IMG/VR virus record: IMGVR_UViG_3300049489_000424
Coordinates: 1-28,552 of that record
Strand: one strand, 5' to 3'
DNA length: 28,552 bases
DNA from: a virus
A program made the position numbers and the translations under genes. The notes under the pieces are model-generated. The model was not told the origin of the DNA. It ran no database searches and saw only the letters and a program-made list of their open reading frames with translations. This document shows, in pieces, positions 2,579-28,552 of the stretch; the stretch's first letter is position 1; the number at the start of each line of letters is the position of its first letter.

Positions 2579-4024
2579 ATGGGCCTGACTCAGGTATTCA
2601 ATCGATTGACAAGCCGGTTCGGCTACGACGCGCTGGAGCCAAAGGGACGCCGCAAGGCGATCACCAGCAGCGTCTTCCGGGAAGACTACCACACGCGTGG
2701 AAGCCGTCACCGAGGCCTCCAAGAGAACGCTGCCGACCTGGCACGCAATCTCAGTCTTGCGGCGTGGATGGTCCGCCGGCACCTCGACTACGTGTCGCAG
2801 TTCGAATTCCACGGCCGCAATGAGGACGAGGCGCTCAACCAGCAAATCGAAAAGCTGATGCTGGAGGATTCGCGGCCGGCTCGGGCTGACGTGGCTGGTC
2901 GATTCGGCCGAGAGAAGATGTTTCGCCTGGCGGAAATGCGGCGCGTACTCGACGGAGACACTGTCCTGATCAAGATGCGGGATGGCCGGATGCAGGGGAT
3001 CCAGGCTGACTTAATCAAGGATCCTGAAACCGCACTGGCTGGAAGCGCAGAAAGCGAGGGCTGGATCAGTGGCGTGAAGGTCAACGATGTTGGCAGGCCG
3101 CTTGCATACGCGATCCACAAGCGAGCCGGATACACCCACACGTCGTTCGTTCGCCAGGTCAACGCTCCGAACCTGATTCACTACGGTTTCTTCGAGCGTT
3201 ACGCGTCGGACCAGGTGCGAGGCGTGTCTCCGCTGACCTCCGCGTTGAATCCGCTGCGTGACGTGTACGAGAACTTCAACTACGCGTTGGCGAAGGCAAA
3301 GGTCTCGCAGTTATTCGCGCTCGCTTTCTTCCGTGACTCTCCCGACTCGGCCGGATATGTCGAGGAGGATCCGATGCGTGGGACTCGGGAGGCGACCGCC
3401 GATCGTCCCGAGGAACCGGAGGGATACAAGGTTGATTTCGGAAGTGGGCCGGTCGTCATGGATCTCGAGCCTGGCGACAAGGCGGAGTTCCTCGAGTCTC
3501 GCCAACCGTCGAGCGAGTTTCAGGCGTTCACCACGATGGTGATCCAGGTGGCTCTCAAGTCCCTCGACATTCCATTCAGCTTCTACGACGAGTCGCACAC
3601 GAACTTTTTCGGCAGTCGCGCGGCATGGCTGCACTACGAACGCTCGTGCAAAGACAAGCGAGATGACCAGGTCGAGATGCGCCGCAACTACACCGTGTGG
3701 AAGTTGCAGCAGTGGATCGCCGATGGCCTGCTCGTTTTGCCGAGCGGAATGATGTTTCCCGAGGTGCGGTTCGAGTGGGTCCCTCGCGGGATGCCGTGGT
3801 GGGATCCGTCGAAGGAAATCAACGGGCACGTGCAAGCGATCAAAAGCGGCCTCGACACACCGCAGCGGATTTGCCGCAGCACTGGAAGCGACTACTACGA
3901 CAACGTGGACGAGATCGCCAAGGCGCTGCAGTACGCAAGCGAGAAGGGCGTGTCCGTCGAATTCGCGGTTCAGCAGATGGCGGAACCTGTTGCAAAGGAT
4001 GACGAGGAGGACGACGAAGAATGA
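2579..4024 (+). CDS. Phage portal protein, lambda gpB family
   Basis: The portal is the twelve-fold ring at one vertex of the head through which DNA enters and leaves. The lambda-family pattern is clear: an early block on Arg-rich and aromatic residues (NLSLAAWMVRRHLDYVSQ, about 60-77), the GD-V-I-K-M stretch near 125-133, and the middle region with HYGFFERYASDQVRGVSPL, typical of these portals. The C-terminal part has QVALKSLDIPFSFYDES and FFGSRAAW, also family landmarks. It ends in an acidic tail (KDDEEDDEE). At 481 aa it is slightly shorter than lambda gpB. The start follows the gpW stop directly, and the stop overlaps the next gene by ATGA. Confidence 0.92.
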   Translation: MGLTQVFNRLTSRFGYDALEPKGRRKAITSSVFREDYHTRGSRHRGLQENAADLARNLSLAAWMVRRHLDYVSQFEFHGRNEDEALNQQIEKLMLEDSRPARADVAGRFGREKMFRLAEMRRVLDGDTVLIKMRDGRMQGIQADLIKDPETALAGSAESEGWISGVKVNDVGRPLAYAIHKRAGYTHTSFVRQVNAPNLIHYGFFERYASDQVRGVSPLTSALNPLRDVYENFNYALAKAKVSQLFALAFFRDSPDSAGYVEEDPMRGTREATADRPEEPEGYKVDFGSGPVVMDLEPGDKAEFLESRQPSSEFQAFTTMVIQVALKSLDIPFSFYDESHTNFFGSRAAWLHYERSCKDKRDDQVEMRRNYTVWKLQQWIADGLLVLPSGMMFPEVRFEWVPRGMPWWDPSKEINGHVQAIKSGLDTPQRICRSTGSDYYDNVDEIAKALQYASEKGVSVEFAVQQMAEPVAKDDEEDDEE

Positions 4025-5163
4025 AACCGACGCCTGAACTCCCTGTGAAAGAGAGCCTGTTCCGTGGATCGCGTGCCAGCGTCAAGGAAGAACTCGTCCG
4101 AGTGGATCGGTTCGGAGGCTCCGAAGGAGCGGGCGTCATTCATGGCGTTTCGCTGATCGCTGCCGGCGAGGCTCTCGGACACGACATGTGGATCGATAGC
4201 GTGACGCTCGAGCAGGTGGCCGAGTTTGCCAACCGCAGCAAGACCGGGCTGAAGTCTCGGTTCACGCACCCGTCCATGTCGGCGGACGGACTTGGTCGAC
4301 ACCTCGGCAGGCTTCGCAACGCTCGCGTTGAAGGCGATCGCGTGCTAGCCGACCTGCACCTGACGGAATCGTCGCACAAGACGCCAGACGGCGACCTTGG
4401 CGGCTACGTCATGGACCTGTCGGAGGAAGACCCAGCGGCAGCCGGACTCTCGATCGTGTTCGAGCACGACGAAGAGGAAGAGATGCAGTTCATGTTTGAG
4501 CACGGTGCGAGGATCGTTGACGGTTGGTTCGACGCGAGAGAGTTCTATTCTCCAGATGAAGCCAATGTCCGTAACCTTCGTCATGTGCGACTCGCGAAGC
4601 TACGCGCCGCAGACGTGGTCGACGAGCCGGCCGCGAATCCGGAAGGACTATTCGACCGGCAATCGCTCCCTCGCGTGGTCGACGAACTGCTGTCTTACGC
4701 GGCGGGACTTACGACCGACAAACCAAAGAGCGAGGCGTTCGGAGTGGACGCCGATCGAGCAACGCAATTTCTGGGCAGGTGGCTCGATAGCCACGGCCTT
4801 TTATTAACCCCGAAGGCAGAGGAAAAACCGATGTCTGTTGAACCAGTGGTGGCACCGGAGCAGCCGGTTACTCCGCAGCCGACGCGAGAGGATTTCCTCG
4901 CAGAGTTAAAACGATACACCGACCGCTTTGGTGCCGTGAACGGCCAGAAGTGGTTCGAGGAAGGCAAGAGCTTTGCGGAGGCACTGGAATCGCACTGCGA
5001 CCAGTTGAATTCGCAGATCGCCAGCCTGAAAGAAACGGTCGCTGAGCTTGAAGCAAAGCTGGCCGCCGTGAACCTCGGTGAGGTCGAACCTGTTCCCACC
5101 GGCGCGAGCCATGAGAGCAAGAAGCGAACTTTCGCTGAACACGTCAAAGCAAGCCGAAACTAA
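4021..5163 (+). CDS. Prohead protease with C-terminal scaffold domain
   Basis: The protein processes the prohead during assembly and probably provides its scaffold. Residues about 38-215 look like a herpes/HK97-type assembly protease: a His in FTHPSM (H83), a Ser in AAGLSIVFEH (S144), and the ADVVDEPAANP block near 197-207 that recalls the VDxPA strand of prohead proteases. H83 and S144 are therefore candidate catalytic residues. Residues 271-380 form a separate acidic region with a predicted coiled coil (LNSQIASLKETVAELEAKLA), as expected of a scaffold. The gene lies between portal and capsid, overlapping the portal stop by ATGA. The fold is confident at family level; the third catalytic residue is not settled. 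Confidence 0.82.
   Translation: MKPTPELPVKESLFRGSRASVKEELVRVDRFGGSEGAGVIHGVSLIAAGEALGHDMWIDSVTLEQVAEFANRSKTGLKSRFTHPSMSADGLGRHLGRLRNARVEGDRVLADLHLTESSHKTPDGDLGGYVMDLSEEDPAAAGLSIVFEHDEEEEMQFMFEHGARIVDGWFDAREFYSPDEANVRNLRHVRLAKLRAADVVDEPAANPEGLFDRQSLPRVVDELLSYAAGLTTDKPKSEAFGVDADRATQFLGRWLDSHGLLLTPKAEEKPMSVEPVVAPEQPVTPQPTREDFLAELKRYTDRFGAVNGQKWFEEGKSFAEALESHCDQLNSQIASLKETVAELEAKLAAVNLGEVEPVPTGASHESKKRTFAEHVKASRN
4831..5163 (+). CDS. Internal in-frame scaffold protein nested in the protease gene
   Basis: An in-frame ATG at 4831 (residue 271 of the protease) is preceded by AGAGG at 4818-4822, eight bases upstream, a convincing Shine-Dalgarno arrangement inside a coding region. Starting there would give a 110-aa acidic protein made of the linker and the coiled coil only, without protease. 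This copies lambda, where the scaffold Nu3 is made from an internal start within the protease gene C. The capsid protein here has no N-terminal delta domain that I can see, so a separate scaffold is needed. The nested product is inferred; only the start site and the domain boundary are seen. Confidence 0.5.
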   Translation: MSVEPVVAPEQPVTPQPTREDFLAELKRYTDRFGAVNGQKWFEEGKSFAEALESHCDQLNSQIASLKETVAELEAKLAAVNLGEVEPVPTGASHESKKRTFAEHVKASRN

Positions 5164-5187
5164 CCCCGAGCCATAGGAGAAATCGAA

Positions 5188-6117
5188 ATGGCAAATGCTT
5201 TTGTAAGTACGACCGAACTCCTGCAACTCGCGGACGGCAACATTGCTGACATCGACGTCAGCGAGCTTTTGCAGGAAGCTCCAATGCTGGCTGCGATGAA
5301 CGCCATCGTTGCTTCCAACGAAACCTCGCACGAGTGGCTGAAGAAGACAGCGGCTCCCACTGCCAGTTTCCGAGCCATCAATGACGGCTTGGAAAACACG
5401 GTTGCGACCTACACCAAAGTCACACAGACGCTCAAGTTGTTTGACGCCTCCTTCGACATGGACATGGGTTTGCTCAAGACCAGCAGCGGCGACGCTCTCC
5501 GTCGTCGTGAAGCGGTTGACCATCTGATGACTGCCTTCGCTGAGATGGAACAGCAGATCATCTACGGTACCGGCAACATCGCCGGCGGCTTCAATGGTTT
5601 CATGAACGAAACCTCCCTTGATGCGCTAGCTGACGCGATGGTCGTGAATGCTGGCGGTACGACCGCAAGCACGGCATCGAGTGTTTGGGGTGTCAGGACC
5701 GGACCCAGCGACGTGTCTGTCGTCTATGGTGGCGGCGGTCGGATTGAGATCGGGATGGAATATGCCACCCTCCGATCTGGTTCGTCCACTGGTCACTACG
5801 ACGCTTGGCGCACGCCGATCCTGTTCTACGGCGGAATCCAGGTTGCCACGACGCTGAGCCTTGGACGTATCGCGAACCTGACCGCGGACAGCGGAAAGGG
5901 GTTAACGGACGCATTGATTGCGGACCTGCTGTCGCGGTTCCCAGCTGGTCGCGGTCCAACGTTCCTGGCAATGAGTCGCCGGAGCTTGATGCAGCTTCAG
6001 AAGTCGAGGACGGCAACGAATCCTACTGGTTCGCCAGCTCCGTTCCCGACCGAGTCCTTCGGCGTGCCGATCATCGTGAGCGATCAGATCTCCAACACTG
6101 AAGCACTGGAAACCTAA
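5188..6117 (+). CDS. Major capsid protein (HK97 fold)
   Basis: This 309-aa protein forms the head shell. It begins with MANAFVSTTELLQLADG and has the pattern of HK97-fold capsids without an N-terminal delta domain: an N-arm and E-loop-like region (residues about 40-90, with a Thr/Val-rich stretch NTVATYTKVTQTLKLF), a long spine helix (DALRRREAVDHLMTAFAEMEQQIIYGTG, in part), and a C-terminal A-domain with FLAMSRRSLMQLQ and FGVPIIVSDQI. The start has the best ribosome site in the structural block, AGGAGA at 5175-5180 seven bases before the ATG, as expected of the most abundant protein. It directly follows the protease-scaffold gene. Confidence 0.88.
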   Translation: MANAFVSTTELLQLADGNIADIDVSELLQEAPMLAAMNAIVASNETSHEWLKKTAAPTASFRAINDGLENTVATYTKVTQTLKLFDASFDMDMGLLKTSSGDALRRREAVDHLMTAFAEMEQQIIYGTGNIAGGFNGFMNETSLDALADAMVVNAGGTTASTASSVWGVRTGPSDVSVVYGGGGRIEIGMEYATLRSGSSTGHYDAWRTPILFYGGIQVATTLSLGRIANLTADSGKGLTDALIADLLSRFPAGRGPTFLAMSRRSLMQLQKSRTATNPTGSPAPFPTESFGVPIIVSDQISNTEALET

Positions 6118-11784: not shown

Positions 11785-12276
11785 ATGAAAGAAACGCAAT
11801 ACAGTGGATACTTTGTTGACCTAAAAGGAAACCTTTGGTCTAGCAAAGTTGGAAACAAACAGAAACCGTTGAATAAGCTAAGGCTTTTGAAAGTTCAGAC
11901 AACTCACGACGGGTATAAGAGAGCTACTCTTTTCATCAACGGAGAGAAGATTTATTTACCGATTCATCGGTTAATGTTGGAGACTTATGTCTGTCCCAGG
12001 CCAGAAGGTTGTGTATGTAGACACTTGAATGGAAATCCCAGCGACAATCGAATTGAAAATCTTTCTTGGGGAACACCAAGAGAAAATTATGACGACATGA
12101 AGCGACACGGCTCGAATCAAGGAAGCAAGAACCATAACGCCGTTCTCTCAGAAAAGCAGGCGGCAGAGATAAAGAGATCAAAAGGGAAGCTCCGTGAAGT
12201 GGCTGCGAAGCATGGCATTTCAGTGCCTTTAGTCAGTTCTATAAGAACTGGACGCTCCTGGAAGCATCTAGCATGA
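11785..12276 (+). CDS. HNH homing endonuclease, free-standing
   Basis: This 163-aa protein is a mobile DNA endonuclease. It has an N-terminal NUMOD-like region (SGYFVDLKGNLWSSKVG), then the HNH_3 core: HRLMLETYV (H61) followed by CVCRHLNGNPSDNRIENLSW, with H80, N82, D87, N88 and N92 in the usual pattern. A C-terminal helix-turn-helix (LREVAAKHGISVPLVSSI) ending in GRSWKHL would contact DNA. The coding sequence is visibly more AT-rich than the tail genes either side, with codons such as TTT, AAA and ATT, a sign of recent arrival. Its stop overlaps the next tail gene by ATGA. It is a selfish insertion and probably not needed for growth. Confidence 0.9.
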   Translation: MKETQYSGYFVDLKGNLWSSKVGNKQKPLNKLRLLKVQTTHDGYKRATLFINGEKIYLPIHRLMLETYVCPRPEGCVCRHLNGNPSDNRIENLSWGTPRENYDDMKRHGSNQGSKNHNAVLSEKQAAEIKRSKGKLREVAAKHGISVPLVSSIRTGRSWKHLA

Positions 12277-16758: not shown

Positions 16759-16818
16759 GTCCTCCGCTTTTGAGTGGACGACACTTGCCCAGCATCCCAC
16801 TTGAAAAGGATGCTTCCT

Positions 16819-17244
16819 ATGTTTCTCGATCTGAGGAACGGCGGCAGAACTCTCATCGATGATGAGTTGTTCGACAAGCCGCTAACACTTGAAGTGTGGG
16901 CCGGTCAGTTTTTCACGTTTCGGATTTGCGATTGTTCTTGGCGTCACAAGGACAGATACAGAGTCCCCTACGTGCAGACCGTCCAGCAAAGGAGCGGCAA
17001 GCTCTGCTGTATCCGCTTGCATCGTCTCATCATGCAAGCCGCGAAGGGTTCGATTGTCGATCACGTCAATCGTGATGTTCTCGACAACAGAGCCGACAAC
17101 CTTCGTATCTGCGACCACTCGACCAACAATCTCAACAGGTCGAAACATCATCGCGGACGCAATGGCGTCTACGTCAACTCGCTCACAGGCGAGCAATTCT
17201 TACGGACGTTCGTAAACGGCAAAGAGTCGTTGGCGTCAATCTAA
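16819..17244 (+). CDS. HNH endonuclease, apparently shortened
   Basis: This 141-aa protein has the HNH core of phage homing endonucleases: LHRLIMQAAKG (first His), IVDHVNRDVLDNRADNLRI with H, N, D and the DNR..NL phrase, and SKHHRGRNGVYVN. A homing endonuclease of this type usually continues with an AP2-like DNA-binding domain after GVY; here it ends some 25 residues later (FVNGKESLASI), so the C-terminal domain looks lost. I chose the ATG at 16819, eight bases after AAAGGA; an ATG at 16810 is too close to that site. No other frame after the stop continues the domain. It probably is a degraded copy that still carries the nuclease core. Confidence 0.75.
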   Translation: MFLDLRNGGRTLIDDELFDKPLTLEVWAGQFFTFRICDCSWRHKDRYRVPYVQTVQQRSGKLCCIRLHRLIMQAAKGSIVDHVNRDVLDNRADNLRICDHSTNNLNRSKHHRGRNGVYVNSLTGEQFLRTFVNGKESLASI

Positions 17245-20361: not shown

Positions 20362-21560
20362 GATTACCTCCGGGTGACAAGGGCCCGGAGCGATTAACGA
20401 TCTATCAGCGTGCGGTCAGGTATGTGGCGAAAATGGACGCGGCCGTGTCCGGAGAGAACGGTCACGACAGATGTTTTGCCGTCGCTTGCAAGCTGGTGAT
20501 TGATTTTGCTCTGAGTCAAGACGATGCGTTTCGCATCATGTGGGACGAGTACAACCCACGCTGCGATCCAGAATGGACCGAGAAGGAACTATGGCACAAG
20601 ATCGACTCGGCATCGAAACAGAAGGGCGAACGCGGCCGACTGGCTGGCGAGGATCCTGCGCCGTGGGAATCGAACGGGAAACCGACAGGCAAGCCGCCGA
20701 AGATCTCGCCGACGATCGGGATGCTCGGCGAACTGATGGCGAAGTTGAGACGCGGCGAAGGGGACGTTCTGTATGCGGCCGGTGACACGTTTGGTCATTT
20801 CGAGTGCGGTCCTGGGAAGGTCACGATCCTTGGCGCTCCACCAGGCGCCGGAAAAACGGCCATTGCCATGCAGTACGTGTTCGCACACCTCGAAGCCGAT
20901 AAGGACGCACGGGTCGTGATCGCCAATGCGGAAATGTCATTCGAGGTGTTGATGCGTCGTGAATTGACCAGGCGGAGTGGTGTGCCTGGGAAGTCGCTCA
21001 GGTTCGCCACGTTGAACGGCATGCAGATGGAAGATGTGGAAGCCGCGGCATCCTCGCTGGTGCCATTGGTGGAGCGTATAGAGGTTCTGATGCCACCATA
21101 CTCGCAGGAGTCATTGTCCGGCTTGTTGGTCGGCGGGAAGGGGCGGCTGTTGGTCGTGGATTACTTGCAGAAGTTCGCCGGTGGCGATGATCCGCGGATC
21201 GGGGTGAACCAGGTCATGGGAGTGCTTCGGATGCTGGCACACGATGCGTGGGGCGTCCTGGCGATGTCCAGCGTGACGAGGGTCAAGAAGGGCGAAAAGC
21301 TGTCGATGAACAGTTTCAAGGAGTCAGGCGAGATCGAGTTTAACGCGGATGCTTGCTACCTGCTTCGCGACGAAGGTCCAGTGGACGGCAATGAACGGGT
21401 CAGGAAGGTGAATGTTGACAACGTGAAGAACCGACACGGCGAACTTCACAGTATGCCGCTCGTGTTCGACATGCCGCAGATGACGTTCCGGCCGGTGGAT
21501 ATCCCGAAGCACGATCTTGGGTGGAATGACAAGGATGACGACGATGCAGATCCATTTTAA
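20358..21560 (+). CDS. DnaB-type replicative helicase with PriCT-like N-domain
   Basis: A 400-aa protein starting with GTG at 20358 (GTGA overlap). The N-terminal domain (about 1-90, DDAFRIMWDEYNPRCDPEW...) resembles a primase-C-terminal helical domain. The C-terminal RecA-fold ATPase has Walker A GAPPGAGKT (159-167), NAEMS (190-194, like the EMS step of DnaB), Walker B LLVVDYLQ (264-271), and SVTRVK then FKESGEIEFNADACYLLRDE, the counterpart of DnaB's 'LRESGAIEQDAD...RDE'. It should unwind the fork in the replisome with the primase encoded before it. It ends in an acidic tail. Confidence 0.85.
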   Translation: MRLPPGDKGPERLTIYQRAVRYVAKMDAAVSGENGHDRCFAVACKLVIDFALSQDDAFRIMWDEYNPRCDPEWTEKELWHKIDSASKQKGERGRLAGEDPAPWESNGKPTGKPPKISPTIGMLGELMAKLRRGEGDVLYAAGDTFGHFECGPGKVTILGAPPGAGKTAIAMQYVFAHLEADKDARVVIANAEMSFEVLMRRELTRRSGVPGKSLRFATLNGMQMEDVEAAASSLVPLVERIEVLMPPYSQESLSGLLVGGKGRLLVVDYLQKFAGGDDPRIGVNQVMGVLRMLAHDAWGVLAMSSVTRVKKGEKLSMNSFKESGEIEFNADACYLLRDEGPVDGNERVRKVNVDNVKNRHGELHSMPLVFDMPQMTFRPVDIPKHDLGWNDKDDDDADPF

Positions 21561-22077
21561 CGACATGTTTGTTTCTCCAATCGAGACAGAGGGAGTCTCA
21601 ATAGGCAGGCGATTCGGAATCTACTCATTTTGGGATGCCTCTGGGAATCTCATATATCTCGGCATGAGCACGAATATGGGTAGTCGTATTATCAGCAGTT
21701 TTTGGCATCGGTTCAGAGTTCCGTCAGAGCAGATCCGGTGCAAGGTTATTTACACCGAAACGAAGTCGGATGCGTTTGTGCTTGAAGCCTACCTGATAGC
21801 AAAGCTCAAGCCGCCGATGAACGGGTCTGGTGTTTTCCAGAACGACGAAACCACATTCCAAATTCAGGTCCCAGGTTGGTCGCGCGAGTTCGACTGCCTG
21901 AATATGGATGACGTTTCGGAGTATTGGCGAAGGACGGACGAGCTTAGGGAAATCGAGTCGGTAAATGGATACGCAAAGAATGCAGACAAGAAGGACATCG
22001 ACGGATTCGACGAAGTTGAGGTGGGTGAAGTTCAACGATCTGACGGACAGGATTTTGAGGACTCTCTCTGGTTCTGA
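21544..22077 (+). CDS. GIY-YIG endonuclease
   Basis: A 177-aa nuclease. The start is taken at the ATG at 21544, eight bases after AAGGA, and lies inside the helicase gene. The catalytic domain has GIY (25-27), YLG (38-40, for YIG), an Arg in MGSRII (R48), a Glu in VLEAYLI (E81) and N near residue 93, all expected for this family. The C-terminal tail (NADKKDIDGFDEVEVGE) is acidic. It could be a homing endonuclease sitting after the helicase, or a repair/junction-processing enzyme. Codons are slightly more AT-rich than in the neighbours, which favours a mobile origin. Confidence 0.8.
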   Translation: MQIHFNDMFVSPIETEGVSIGRRFGIYSFWDASGNLIYLGMSTNMGSRIISSFWHRFRVPSEQIRCKVIYTETKSDAFVLEAYLIAKLKPPMNGSGVFQNDETTFQIQVPGWSREFDCLNMDDVSEYWRRTDELREIESVNGYAKNADKKDIDGFDEVEVGEVQRSDGQDFEDSLWF

Positions 22078-25702: not shown

Positions 25703-25923
25703 ACGCAAAGGTTCGGCAGTGCGAGAACTGTAATTTTTGGATTGCAGTAAAGGGAGAGCGATTCTGCAAGGGCTGCAAGAAGGAAGTCATACGGAAGCTC
25801 AAAGACGATGGGTATCTGACTGAGCCCGATCTACGCGGAACGTTTAGCGAACGCATCGGAAGAAAAGAGCGATCATCCGCCGTTCTAGGTGGCTCGTGCG
25901 AAATGAGGACCGACGATGAATAG
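25699..25923 (+). CDS. Small zinc-ribbon protein
   Basis: A 74-aa protein starting with GTG at 25699 (GTGA overlap). It has a CENC and a CKGC pair 14 residues apart, typical of a one-metal ribbon, with WIAVKGERF in between. Then comes a basic helix (KEVIRKLKDDGYLTEPD) and a charged end. Function is unknown; it may regulate transcription or bind nucleic acid. Confidence 0.62.
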   Translation: MNAKVRQCENCNFWIAVKGERFCKGCKKEVIRKLKDDGYLTEPDLRGTFSERIGRKERSSAVLGGSCEMRTDDE

Positions 25924-26711
25924 ATTCGCCTGCCTCTTGCTGGGACTGCTGCTACTCTCGCCGGGATCACACTTGGTCGCGTGGGGCCAGTCCCAGCTTG
26001 AGGTTGACGCGGTTTGGCGGTGCGAAAGGACTCATCAACGTCGGCGACGTGGTACTGATCGAGAACGCCAGCGAGATCAAGTTGCAGCCAGCCGTCATGG
26101 TCAAGGTGGTGTCGGAGGCAGCGAACGTCGAAGTCGAGATTACCGACCGCGACCGTCGTCGTGTGGCGTTCGAGCAATTGGCGAGCGAGAACGGCACGAG
26201 CGTCTATTTGGTCAGCGAGCCGGGTAAGTTCTGGCTTGATGTGACCGCGATCGACTTTGCGAAAAACATCTACCGGCGTTCGACCGGCACCGTCATCGAG
26301 GTACCACCGGCACGACCGATCGGACCCGTCGTACCGCCGATGCCGGACCTGCCAGCACCGAGCGACTCGCTGAAAGCGTTGGTCACGCCGATCGGTGCGA
26401 AGCTCGCTGGCGATCCTGCAAAGGCGATGGCGGTTAGCCACATGGCACTAGGCTTCGCCGATGCCGCCAAGTCGGTATCGCTGCCTGACGTGGCATCGCT
26501 CGCGAGGGTCCATGTCGCTGCGGTCACGTCGCTGACACTGCCACCAGGGGCCGCAATCGGGTCGGTGATGGAGCAGGCAATGGCGAGTCACCTCGGGATC
26601 TCACGCAACGACCAGGGACAGTGGCTAGATCGTCCGCTGACGGCAGCAGACCGCGACAAGATCGCGGAGGTTTACTCGGCAATCGGCTGGGCAGCGAGGC
26701 AAGTCAAATGA
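25916..26711 (+). CDS. Secreted protein, apparent frameshift
   Basis: The frame from 25916 begins with a Sec signal peptide (MNRFACLLLGLLLLSPGS) and reads QSQLEVDAV, then turns into Arg-rich nonsense. A second frame, open from about 25998 to 26711, gives a plausible periplasmic or surface protein (GGAKGLINVGDVVLIENAS onward, with DVTAIDFAKNIYRRSTG and a Pro-rich linker before a helical C-terminal domain). The two fit as one protein if one base is removed near the TTT at 26013-26015 (DAV-GGAKG). It is either a real mutation, a programmed shift or a sequence error. The second frame alone has only a TTG start and no signal. Product about 260 aa. Confidence 0.55.
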
Positions 26712-26920
26712 GACTCCGAGTCACCAGCAAAACGAACTACGTGACGTTCATCGACGAGTGCTGCGACCATGACTTGGTGATGATCCTTTCGGCAATGCAG
26801 CGGTACCACACTCGCTGGCTTCGCCGACGTAAGCCGCACACGATCGAGATCGTGACCGCCAAGGGACGCTACGTGTTCTTGGTTGCTGATATTTCCGCCG
26901 TCGCACTAGAGGCTACATGA
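26708..26920 (+). CDS. Small basic protein of unknown function
   Basis: A 70-aa protein (MRLRVTSKTNYVTFIDECCD at the start) with an ATGA overlap on each side. It has a helix with basic residues (RYHTRWLRRRK) and a hydrophobic end (GRYVFLVADISAVALEA). Only one CC pair is present. No family is recognised. Its place between the secreted protein and the membrane protein suggests it belongs to that group. Confidence 0.5.
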   Translation: MRLRVTSKTNYVTFIDECCDHDLVMILSAMQRYHTRWLRRRKPHTIEIVTAKGRYVFLVADISAVALEAT

Positions 26921-27108
26921 TGCCAATCTCAACTTACTTTTTTTACGCAGCGATATTCTTTGCGATTTTCGGTTCTGTCCTCGGACTTATTGGAATATGG
27001 CATCGAGGATTCTGGGACAACGAAATCAGTATCAAGCTAATCATGACTGACATGGTTCTGCTTGTGGCTGCGATTATCGTATCTGCGATCATCAGGTTTT
27101 TACGATAA
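26917..27108 (+). CDS. Small membrane protein, possible holin
   Basis: A 63-aa protein with two hydrophobic stretches, IFFAIFGSVLGLIGIW and MVLLVAAIIVSAIIRFL, separated by a short charged loop (HRGFWDNEISIK). ATGATG start at 26917; overlaps the next gene at a single base (TAATG). Two helices with a basic end (RFLR) is a common holin shape (class II), and the next gene encodes an enzyme that could need release. The role is inference. Confidence 0.5.
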   Translation: MMPISTYFFYAAIFFAIFGSVLGLIGIWHRGFWDNEISIKLIMTDMVLLVAAIIVSAIIRFLR

Positions 27109-28265
27109 TGGCGGGCCCGCGAATCATCCCGCACGGTATGGAGATGTGGCCGGAAAAGGCAACGAGCCTTTCCGTCGAATCTGTCGTGCGAATGTATGAG
27201 GATGGTTTCGCGGGTGCGTACTTTGAGCCGGACGAACGCGAGGCGTTTCATGATGAGATCATCATGTCCGGCGGTCGCGTCTACGGAAGCGACATCGCTC
27301 ACGACGTAGGGTTCGATGATAGCGGTGCTGGGAAGCTGTCGATCCCGTTTGTGTTCTCGCAGATCATCTTTCCTGGTGCGTTGCCTGGTCCGGGGCAGGT
27401 GCGAGGTGATTGCGTTTCTCATGATGCCAAAAATTCGGCAATGGTCACTTACGCTTGCGAGATCCAGTGGGGCAAGCCGGATGAGGTCAGCGGCAAGATC
27501 GAAGAAGCTCCCTACATCTCACCTCTCGGTTTAACGCAAGGGGGCTTCGCTACCGAACCGGCGTATCATCATCGCGGACATGGGTCGGACGGTTGGAGCT
27601 GCGATGCAGCCGCTCGCGTGTGGATGAACAAGGCTGGATTGCTGCCGCGTTCCGACTACACCAACACACCGCTTGGCATGGACTTGACGAAATACAGCGG
27701 GCCAAACGCTGGCCGTTGGGGCAGGACTCCGCCGCCTGCCGACGTGATCGAGTTCACGAACGACAACCTAGTCCGTCAAGCGACGACCTGCGGCAGCCGT
27801 GAAGAACGCCGCGACTTCATCGCCAACGGCTACGCAATCTCGACCTGTGGCAGCGAAGGTTTCAGCGACAAACGAGACGATAACGGCGTCAGTGCTCGGC
27901 GTGGCTCGTGGGCTCATGCCATGTGCATATGTGGCATAGATGACCGCGACAGCACGAAGGCAATCTACGGCGAGTCGCTTGAGCTAGTCCAAAATTCATG
28001 GGCCGTCTGGAACAGCGGTCCGCGTGATATCCGCGACTCGAAAGAGTACGTCCAGGGACTGATGGTGATGACCGGCAAGACGAGGACGGAACTGATCGCA
28101 CTGGACATAGTCAACGCCGAGACCGGCAACATCATGATTCCGAAGGGTTCGTTCTGGGCACGAAGCCGCGATGTCAAGGGACGGACCTGCATCGCTAAGG
28201 CTGGCGTCAACGGTTGGCAAAAGCGAGATCTCTGGATACCGATGCCGGGAGACTTGCTGATATGA
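27108..28265 (+). CDS. Papain-fold cysteine protease
   Basis: A 385-aa protein with the papain signature: Q97 and C102 in GQVRGDCVSH (oxyanion Gln and nucleophile), H270 in WAHAMCICGID, and N296 in VQNSWAVWNSG. The NSW phrase is the mark of papain's Asn loop. The spacing (about 168 residues from Cys to His) is normal. There is no signal peptide. A C-terminal part (310-385) is beta-rich and may bind a target. It follows a two-helix membrane protein, so a lysis role (protein-rich planctomycete wall) is attractive. A virion or host-takeover protease is the alternative. ATGA overlap to the next gene. Confidence 0.68.
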   Translation: MAGPRIIPHGMEMWPEKATSLSVESVVRMYEDGFAGAYFEPDEREAFHDEIIMSGGRVYGSDIAHDVGFDDSGAGKLSIPFVFSQIIFPGALPGPGQVRGDCVSHDAKNSAMVTYACEIQWGKPDEVSGKIEEAPYISPLGLTQGGFATEPAYHHRGHGSDGWSCDAAARVWMNKAGLLPRSDYTNTPLGMDLTKYSGPNAGRWGRTPPPADVIEFTNDNLVRQATTCGSREERRDFIANGYAISTCGSEGFSDKRDDNGVSARRGSWAHAMCICGIDDRDSTKAIYGESLELVQNSWAVWNSGPRDIRDSKEYVQGLMVMTGKTRTELIALDIVNAETGNIMIPKGSFWARSRDVKGRTCIAKAGVNGWQKRDLWIPMPGDLLI

Positions 28266-28552
28266 GACGCGAGGATCTCTGGTATGCGATCGTCTGGACT
28301 GTGGCGACGTTTGCTGCTGCCGTCTGCGAAGGTCAGACACGGGAGCAGGGACGAGCAACCTGGGTGTTTATCGCTCAGTCGGTTTTACAATCGCCGAACG
28401 TGGTGCCGACACCTTCGCCAACGCCATCATCCGACATCTGCGAGAACTGCAACGGCCGCGGCAAGATCGGCGACGGCACGATAATGAAAACTTGTCCAGA
28501 GTGCGACGGCACCGGCAAGAAAAAGAAGCTGACCGCAATCGTCCCGAACGAC
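28262..28552 (+). CDS. Exported small protein with DnaJ-like zinc motif (partial)
   Basis: The frame begins with ATGA overlap and runs off the window end (97 codons seen). The first about 20 residues (MRREDLWYAIVWTVATFAAA) look like a signal or anchor. A Pro/Ser-rich linker follows, then CENCNGRGKIGDG and CPECDGTGKKKK, two CxxCxGxG repeats as in the zinc region of DnaJ. There is no J domain, so it is not a co-chaperone. Planctomycete phage and host proteins often carry this motif, as far as I recall. It may bind unfolded proteins or metals at the cell surface. The 3' end is missing. Confidence 0.6.
   Translation, partial: MRREDLWYAIVWTVATFAAAVCEGQTREQGRATWVFIAQSVLQSPNVVPTPSPTPSSDICENCNGRGKIGDGTIMKTCPECDGTGKKKKLTAIVPND

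Follow-up and report, generated by a model that had tools for sequence, protein, structure and literature searches.

What would a phage do with a papain-like peptidase that lacks a signal sequence and is encoded immediately behind a small, holin-shaped membrane protein? The question is raised by the last genes of a viral contig of 28,552 bases, analysed here over its whole length (the window), which corresponds to a complete IMG/VR record and is linear, without a terminal repeat and possibly incomplete as a genome, so that absence from the window does not equal absence from the phage.

The peptidase and its operon

The features of the window that matter here, all on the + strand, are:

3-2054, +: terminase large subunit (PHROG and GpA_nuclease matches)
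25916-26711, +: gene of an exported partner, in two frames (25916-26227 with the signal sequence, 25998-26711 with the body)
26708-26920, +: small soluble protein, overlapping its neighbours on both sides
26917-27108, +: 63-residue two-helix membrane protein of holin shape, candidate holin (by hydropathy), overlapping both neighbours
27108-28265, +: 385-residue papain-fold cysteine peptidase, candidate lytic enzyme
27396-27413, +: Q97 (27396-27398) and nucleophile C102 (27411-27413), invariant in 41/41
27915-27917, +: catalytic H270, invariant in 41/41
27993-27995, +: catalytic N296 of the NSW motif, invariant in 41/41
28262-28552, +: zinc-knuckle protein with CxxCxGxG repeats, seemingly exported and truncated at the end of the contig

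The genes for the small soluble protein, the 63-residue protein, the peptidase and the zinc-knuckle protein form a four-gene operon with tight serial overlaps (ATGA at 26917-26920, TAATG at 27106-27110 and ATGA at 28262-28265). An earlier note on this DNA had proposed a coupled operon of a two-helix membrane protein and a papain-type protease without a signal peptide. Both open reading frames are real at these coordinates, the overlaps bear out the coupling, the landmark residues lie where the note had placed them, and no hydrophobic segment is found at the N-terminus of the peptidase.

In a Kyte-Doolittle scan, the 63-residue protein has two hydrophobic segments, the first barely above the threshold, and two such segments occur in only 2 of the 235 stop-to-stop ORFs of 55-120 residues in the window; a pattern search returned no homologue, and there was no significant match to PHROG or Pfam families, including those of holins. 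The exported partner upstream, for which a pattern search likewise found no homologue, combines Ig-like strands with a C-terminal five-helix domain, the latter modelled mostly at pLDDT 80-98 and the N-terminal half poorly. Its two frames do not join, which gives an apparent frameshift near 26000-26020 that may be a sequencing error, a programmed shift or a real lesion. A Pfam scan matched DnaJ_CXXCXGXG (E 1.9e-5) in one window ORF, which its motif ties to the zinc-knuckle gene at 28262-28552. Elsewhere in the window, HNH_3 homing-endonuclease-like genes lie at 11785-12276 and 16774-17244 (Pfam matches, with ORFs assigned by eye) and a GIY-YIG-like ORF at 21517-22077.

The AF2 model of the peptidase (pLDDT 86.7, pTM 0.87) has 26 PDB structure matches at E<=0.001, all of them C1 papain-like proteases and headed by xylellain, cathepsin B, papain and falcipain-2, with modest TM-scores (0.4-0.6, depending on the target); its structure matches in BFVD include C1-annotated proteins of uncultured phages. 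Judged by this modelled fold, the product of 27108-28265 is a papain-fold (C1-like) cysteine peptidase. It shares with peptidase family C1 (papain; PF00112, MEROPS C1A) the fold, the Q-C-H-N order and the NSW motif, and differs in lying below Pfam detection, in its extra insertions, in having no recognised propeptide, and in a Q-C spacing of 5 positions, as opposed to 6 in papain (Q19 and C25). Among 41 aligned relatives, which are 29-47% identical to the window protein, Q97, C102, H270 and N296 are invariant throughout, and their presence is therefore not due to chance. The Peptidase_C1 profile matches 5 of these 41 at E<=0.1 (best 2.2e-5) and not the window protein, and the CHAP and NlpC/P60 profiles match neither the window protein nor its relatives.

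In two loci (L161:8657-10714 and L166:8687-10717), an intein with a LAGLIDADG domain splits the GD from the equivalent of C102, which becomes the +1 extein residue; since inteins favour conserved active sites, the catalytic cysteine is very likely functional. Very long ORFs in two other loci (L163 and L167) suggest the same intein insertion. For the window protein itself, we infer peptidase activity.

Distribution and gene neighbourhood of the family

Single-sequence searches with the window peptidase returned nothing from viral contigs, bacterial genomes, phages, PHROGs, Pfam or the PDB. A contig found through the window's terminase (L022) happens to include a relative (E 2.5e-25), and the two-sequence profile built from both proteins opened the family, yielding 133 viral loci and another four loci in assemblies of bacteria or archaea; a 41-sequence profile then brought the count to at least 541 IMG/VR viral contigs. 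When 50,697 deposited phage records were searched by tblastn with the L022 protein or that of the window, no member came up. One family-bearing contig of a 'Lokiarchaeota' MAG (L178) also carries ribonucleotide reductase and holin-like genes and may be a misbinned virus.

We also looked at 392 genomes of Planctomycetota, a sample defined by the phylum of one Planctomycetaceae MAG; 14 of them carry the family, many on multi-megabase contigs. Together with relatives in Planctomycetaceae and Thermoguttaceae MAGs, this suggests a planctomycete host for the window phage. In 7 of 13 further bacterial-genome loci that were inspected, the peptidase bears an N-terminal membrane helix, as SAR endolysins do, which implies that these copies work outside the cytoplasm; unlike SAR endolysins, the window peptidase and the main set (0 of 86) have no signal-anchor helix. 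The terminase lies 1-2.5 kb downstream of the peptidase in three bacterial-genome loci, and the lysis genes of lambda stand in the same relation to its terminase. For the window, a circularly permuted genome would place the terminase large subunit gene after the cassette.

Gene neighbours were counted in 44 non-redundant loci for ORFs of 50-300 residues, taking those within 1.5 kb of the peptidase as near and those beyond 3.5 kb as far. A membrane helix or lipobox is present in 125 of 211 near ORFs against 58 of 376 far ones (59% vs 15%, P=1e-27), and, in bacterial genomes, in 24 of 43 against 10 of 63. Small membrane proteins (<=160 residues) lie within 1.5 kb of the peptidase in 36 of the 44 loci, and exported proteins with C-terminal helices and exported proteins with a metal-binding motif (CxxCxGxG or CxCxGTG...HGDGH), taken together as one cluster, occur in 33. 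The membrane proteins include a family of 58-79 residues near the peptidase in 13 loci, a family of 68-81 residues in 12, usually directly upstream, and a one-helix protein in 24. In 13 of the 44 loci, one neighbour is from a small family, some members of which match PHROG holins. For 24 members of the families of 58-79 and 68-81 residues, holins are the only PHROG families matched, and 7 of the 24 proteins match the holin family phrog_9987 (best E 1.1e-4).

This cassette is conserved, and the window has the same one as its relatives: relatives of its exported partner (L249:2454-3254, E 4e-5) and of its zinc-knuckle protein (E 3.9e-15) both flank the peptidase of L249, and L249, L253, L284 and L285 have zinc-knuckle relatives downstream of the papain gene. 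Near some cassettes we also observed exported thioredoxin-like proteins (L235:8518-9075 and L139:6809-7198), possibly redox helpers for a cysteine enzyme, and, about 1 kb downstream of another, an ORF that by eye resembles a cysteine hydrolase of the YiiX/NlpC-P60 type (L255:8036-8596).

A probable lytic role and its alternatives

The absence of a lysozyme, amidase or CHAP domain from the window, as claimed in the earlier note, held up both in a scan of 42 window ORFs against Pfam, where none was among the best 25 of 27 families, and in six-frame searches with lysozyme, amidase and CHAP profiles. Likewise, Amidase_2, CHAP, Phage_lysozyme, M15_4 and SLT were found in none of 49 contigs, of which 46 (~3.1 Mb) are carriers of the gene and mostly fragments. 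We rejected endolysin depletion as proof of a lytic role: in a control covering Amidase_2 alone of the five families, this domain was just as absent from 49 related contigs that lack the gene, so that its absence is not specific to carriers and constitutes weak evidence.

In Pfam scans of individual contigs, the sole candidate lysin of G001 is a matrixin (M10) metalloprotease with a peptidoglycan-binding domain that adjoins the cassette (matrixin+PG_binding, L098:8204-9112), that of G046 is a Peptidase_C1 protein, and the scanned part of G035 has no peptidoglycan hydrolase. A second matrixin occurs in G040, and matrixins are found in only two of the 49 contigs. G046-G048 are the closest large-contig relatives of the window phage (portal 60-63% identical); they are without the window's peptidase and encode a different C1 peptidase, which passes the Peptidase_C1 cut-off in G046 and G048 and sits among clustered genes for exported and membrane proteins, followed in G048 by a 72-residue membrane protein. 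A third C1 peptidase occurs in yet another relative, G078 (these two other types lie at L184:3716-4465, L189:4718-5470 and L218:1375-2202). This phage group thus has a slot that a C1 enzyme occupies time and again, which speaks for selection for a C1 activity. In G046, sulfotransferase and TET-associated glycosyltransferase genes, perhaps for DNA hypermodification, stand beside the terminase (L185:11114-14250), and G047 and G048 are similar.

In our view, the product of 27108-28265 is probably the lytic enzyme in a lysis cassette of holin type, though an unusual one. Made late and without a signal sequence, the peptidase would remain cytoplasmic up to the point at which the two-helix membrane protein, co-translated with it, opens the inner membrane and releases it, the anchored forms being exported instead; it would then cut peptide bonds of the envelope with the assistance of two exported partners from the same operon. 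That the 63-residue protein effects the release, and that lysis is the outcome, is what we infer from this arrangement.

The earlier note had gone further, suggesting from the protein-rich envelopes of planctomycetes that the phage may lyse or enter the cell by proteolysis. The papain-fold peptidase and a lysis-type context with some holin-family neighbours speak for its lytic part, but do not establish protein as the target, and the argument from a protein envelope is outdated. Planctomycetes have a lysozyme-sensitive peptidoglycan sacculus with DAP (PMC4432640), and papain-fold enzymes include peptidoglycan peptidases (CHAP and NlpC/P60, in papain-like superfamily cluster II; PMC10318531), so that the bonds cut could equally be those of peptidoglycan stems or of proteins. 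We are doubtful of the wider proposal that lysis by proteolysis operates in widespread uncultivated phages, many perhaps of Planctomycetota, in which a papain-type protease, sometimes with a matrixin metalloprotease, would digest envelope proteins with the aid of exported zinc-knuckle and thioredoxin-like helpers that might, for example, maintain the active-site cysteine in its reduced form outside the cytoplasm.

Among the alternatives to a lytic enzyme, the one that survives best, although we hold it to be unlikely, is a virion-associated protease that would cut S-layer or surface proteins during entry or process tail proteins, the nearby membrane proteins serving otherwise. Several gene orders fit it: the cassette of L098 has a Baseplate_J gene on one side and a tail-like gene on the other, those of L022 and L245 follow capsid genes, and the C1 gene of G046-G048 precedes LamG-domain, tail-like genes. 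The peptidase clusters strongly, however, with small membrane, holin-family and exported proteins and not with any one structural gene, the N-terminal membrane anchors of some bacterial-genome copies are ill-suited to a virion part, and no tail-protein fusion is found among the aligned members.

Somewhat less likely still is a protease, secreted or intracellular, for the takeover of the host through anti-defence, superinfection exclusion or envelope remodelling. The exported thioredoxin-like and zinc-knuckle partners, unusual for a lysis cassette, would suit such a role, as would the chronic release without lysis reported for one planctomycete phage (PMC10945688). The holin-family neighbours speak against it, as does the late, structural or terminase-proximal position of the gene in several genomes.

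Phages do carry assembly proteases, and some loci are near capsid genes, but a role in head maturation or another assembly step is very improbable, given that the window gene is far from the portal and capsid genes (2579-6117), that membrane-anchored copies exist and that, to our knowledge, C1 papain folds do not act as prohead proteases. Finally, an inactive papain-fold relic or binding-only domain, which the so far predicted activity of the window peptidase would allow, is scarcely credible in view of four landmark residues kept without exception at such low identity and of inteins kept exactly at the cysteine in L161 and L166.

Relation to known lysis systems

As a candidate lysis module, the cassette resembles those of holins and endolysins in coupling a small membrane protein to a signal-less enzyme; it differs in the enzyme family and in the exported Ig-like/helical, zinc-knuckle or thioredoxin-like partners, and in having no recognised classical spanins and, in the window, no recognised peptidoglycan hydrolase. 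Spanin pairs consist of a membrane-anchored extended coiled coil and an outer-membrane lipoprotein; lipobox-like partners do occur in some relatives (L098, L103 and L253), but a spanin identity of the exported helical partner is not supported, since its model is a compact bundle, not an extended coil, and has no PDB match. PeiW and PeiP, the pseudomurein endoisopeptidases of archaeal viruses, are cysteine peptidases. Cited elsewhere as viral lysins (PMC12596118), they offer a likeness in that a peptidase serves as the lysin for an unusual wall, and are set apart by their different family and hosts. CHAP and NlpC/P60 endolysins, too, are papain-like cysteine enzymes serving as phage lysins (PMC10318531) and may be functional analogues, but the window protein has no Pfam CHAP or NlpC match and its structure matches C1, not CHAP.

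C1-annotated phage proteins in databases and papain-fold endolysins of the CHAP/NlpC type are already known. We found no description of a C1-type enzyme with this cassette: two surveys of phage lysins make no mention of papain, the main text of one of them, a 2025 survey of viral lytic proteins, mentions neither papain, cysteine nor planctomycetes (PMC12596118), and our searches for papers on papain-type endolysins or on lysis by phages of planctomycetes returned nothing directly relevant.

The family described here is large and previously uncollected, and in hundreds of uncultivated phages it adjoins putative membrane-hole genes. The enzymes of phage lysis are generally taken to belong to a few families of peptidoglycan hydrolases. 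Should the cassette indeed be a module for lysis, a lysis enzyme would be assigned to at least 541 uncultivated phage contigs. Phages of a phylum that matters in the environment, and on whose phages the literature searched says almost nothing, would then have a route to lysis, and whether phage lysis ever cuts proteins instead of peptidoglycan would become a testable question.
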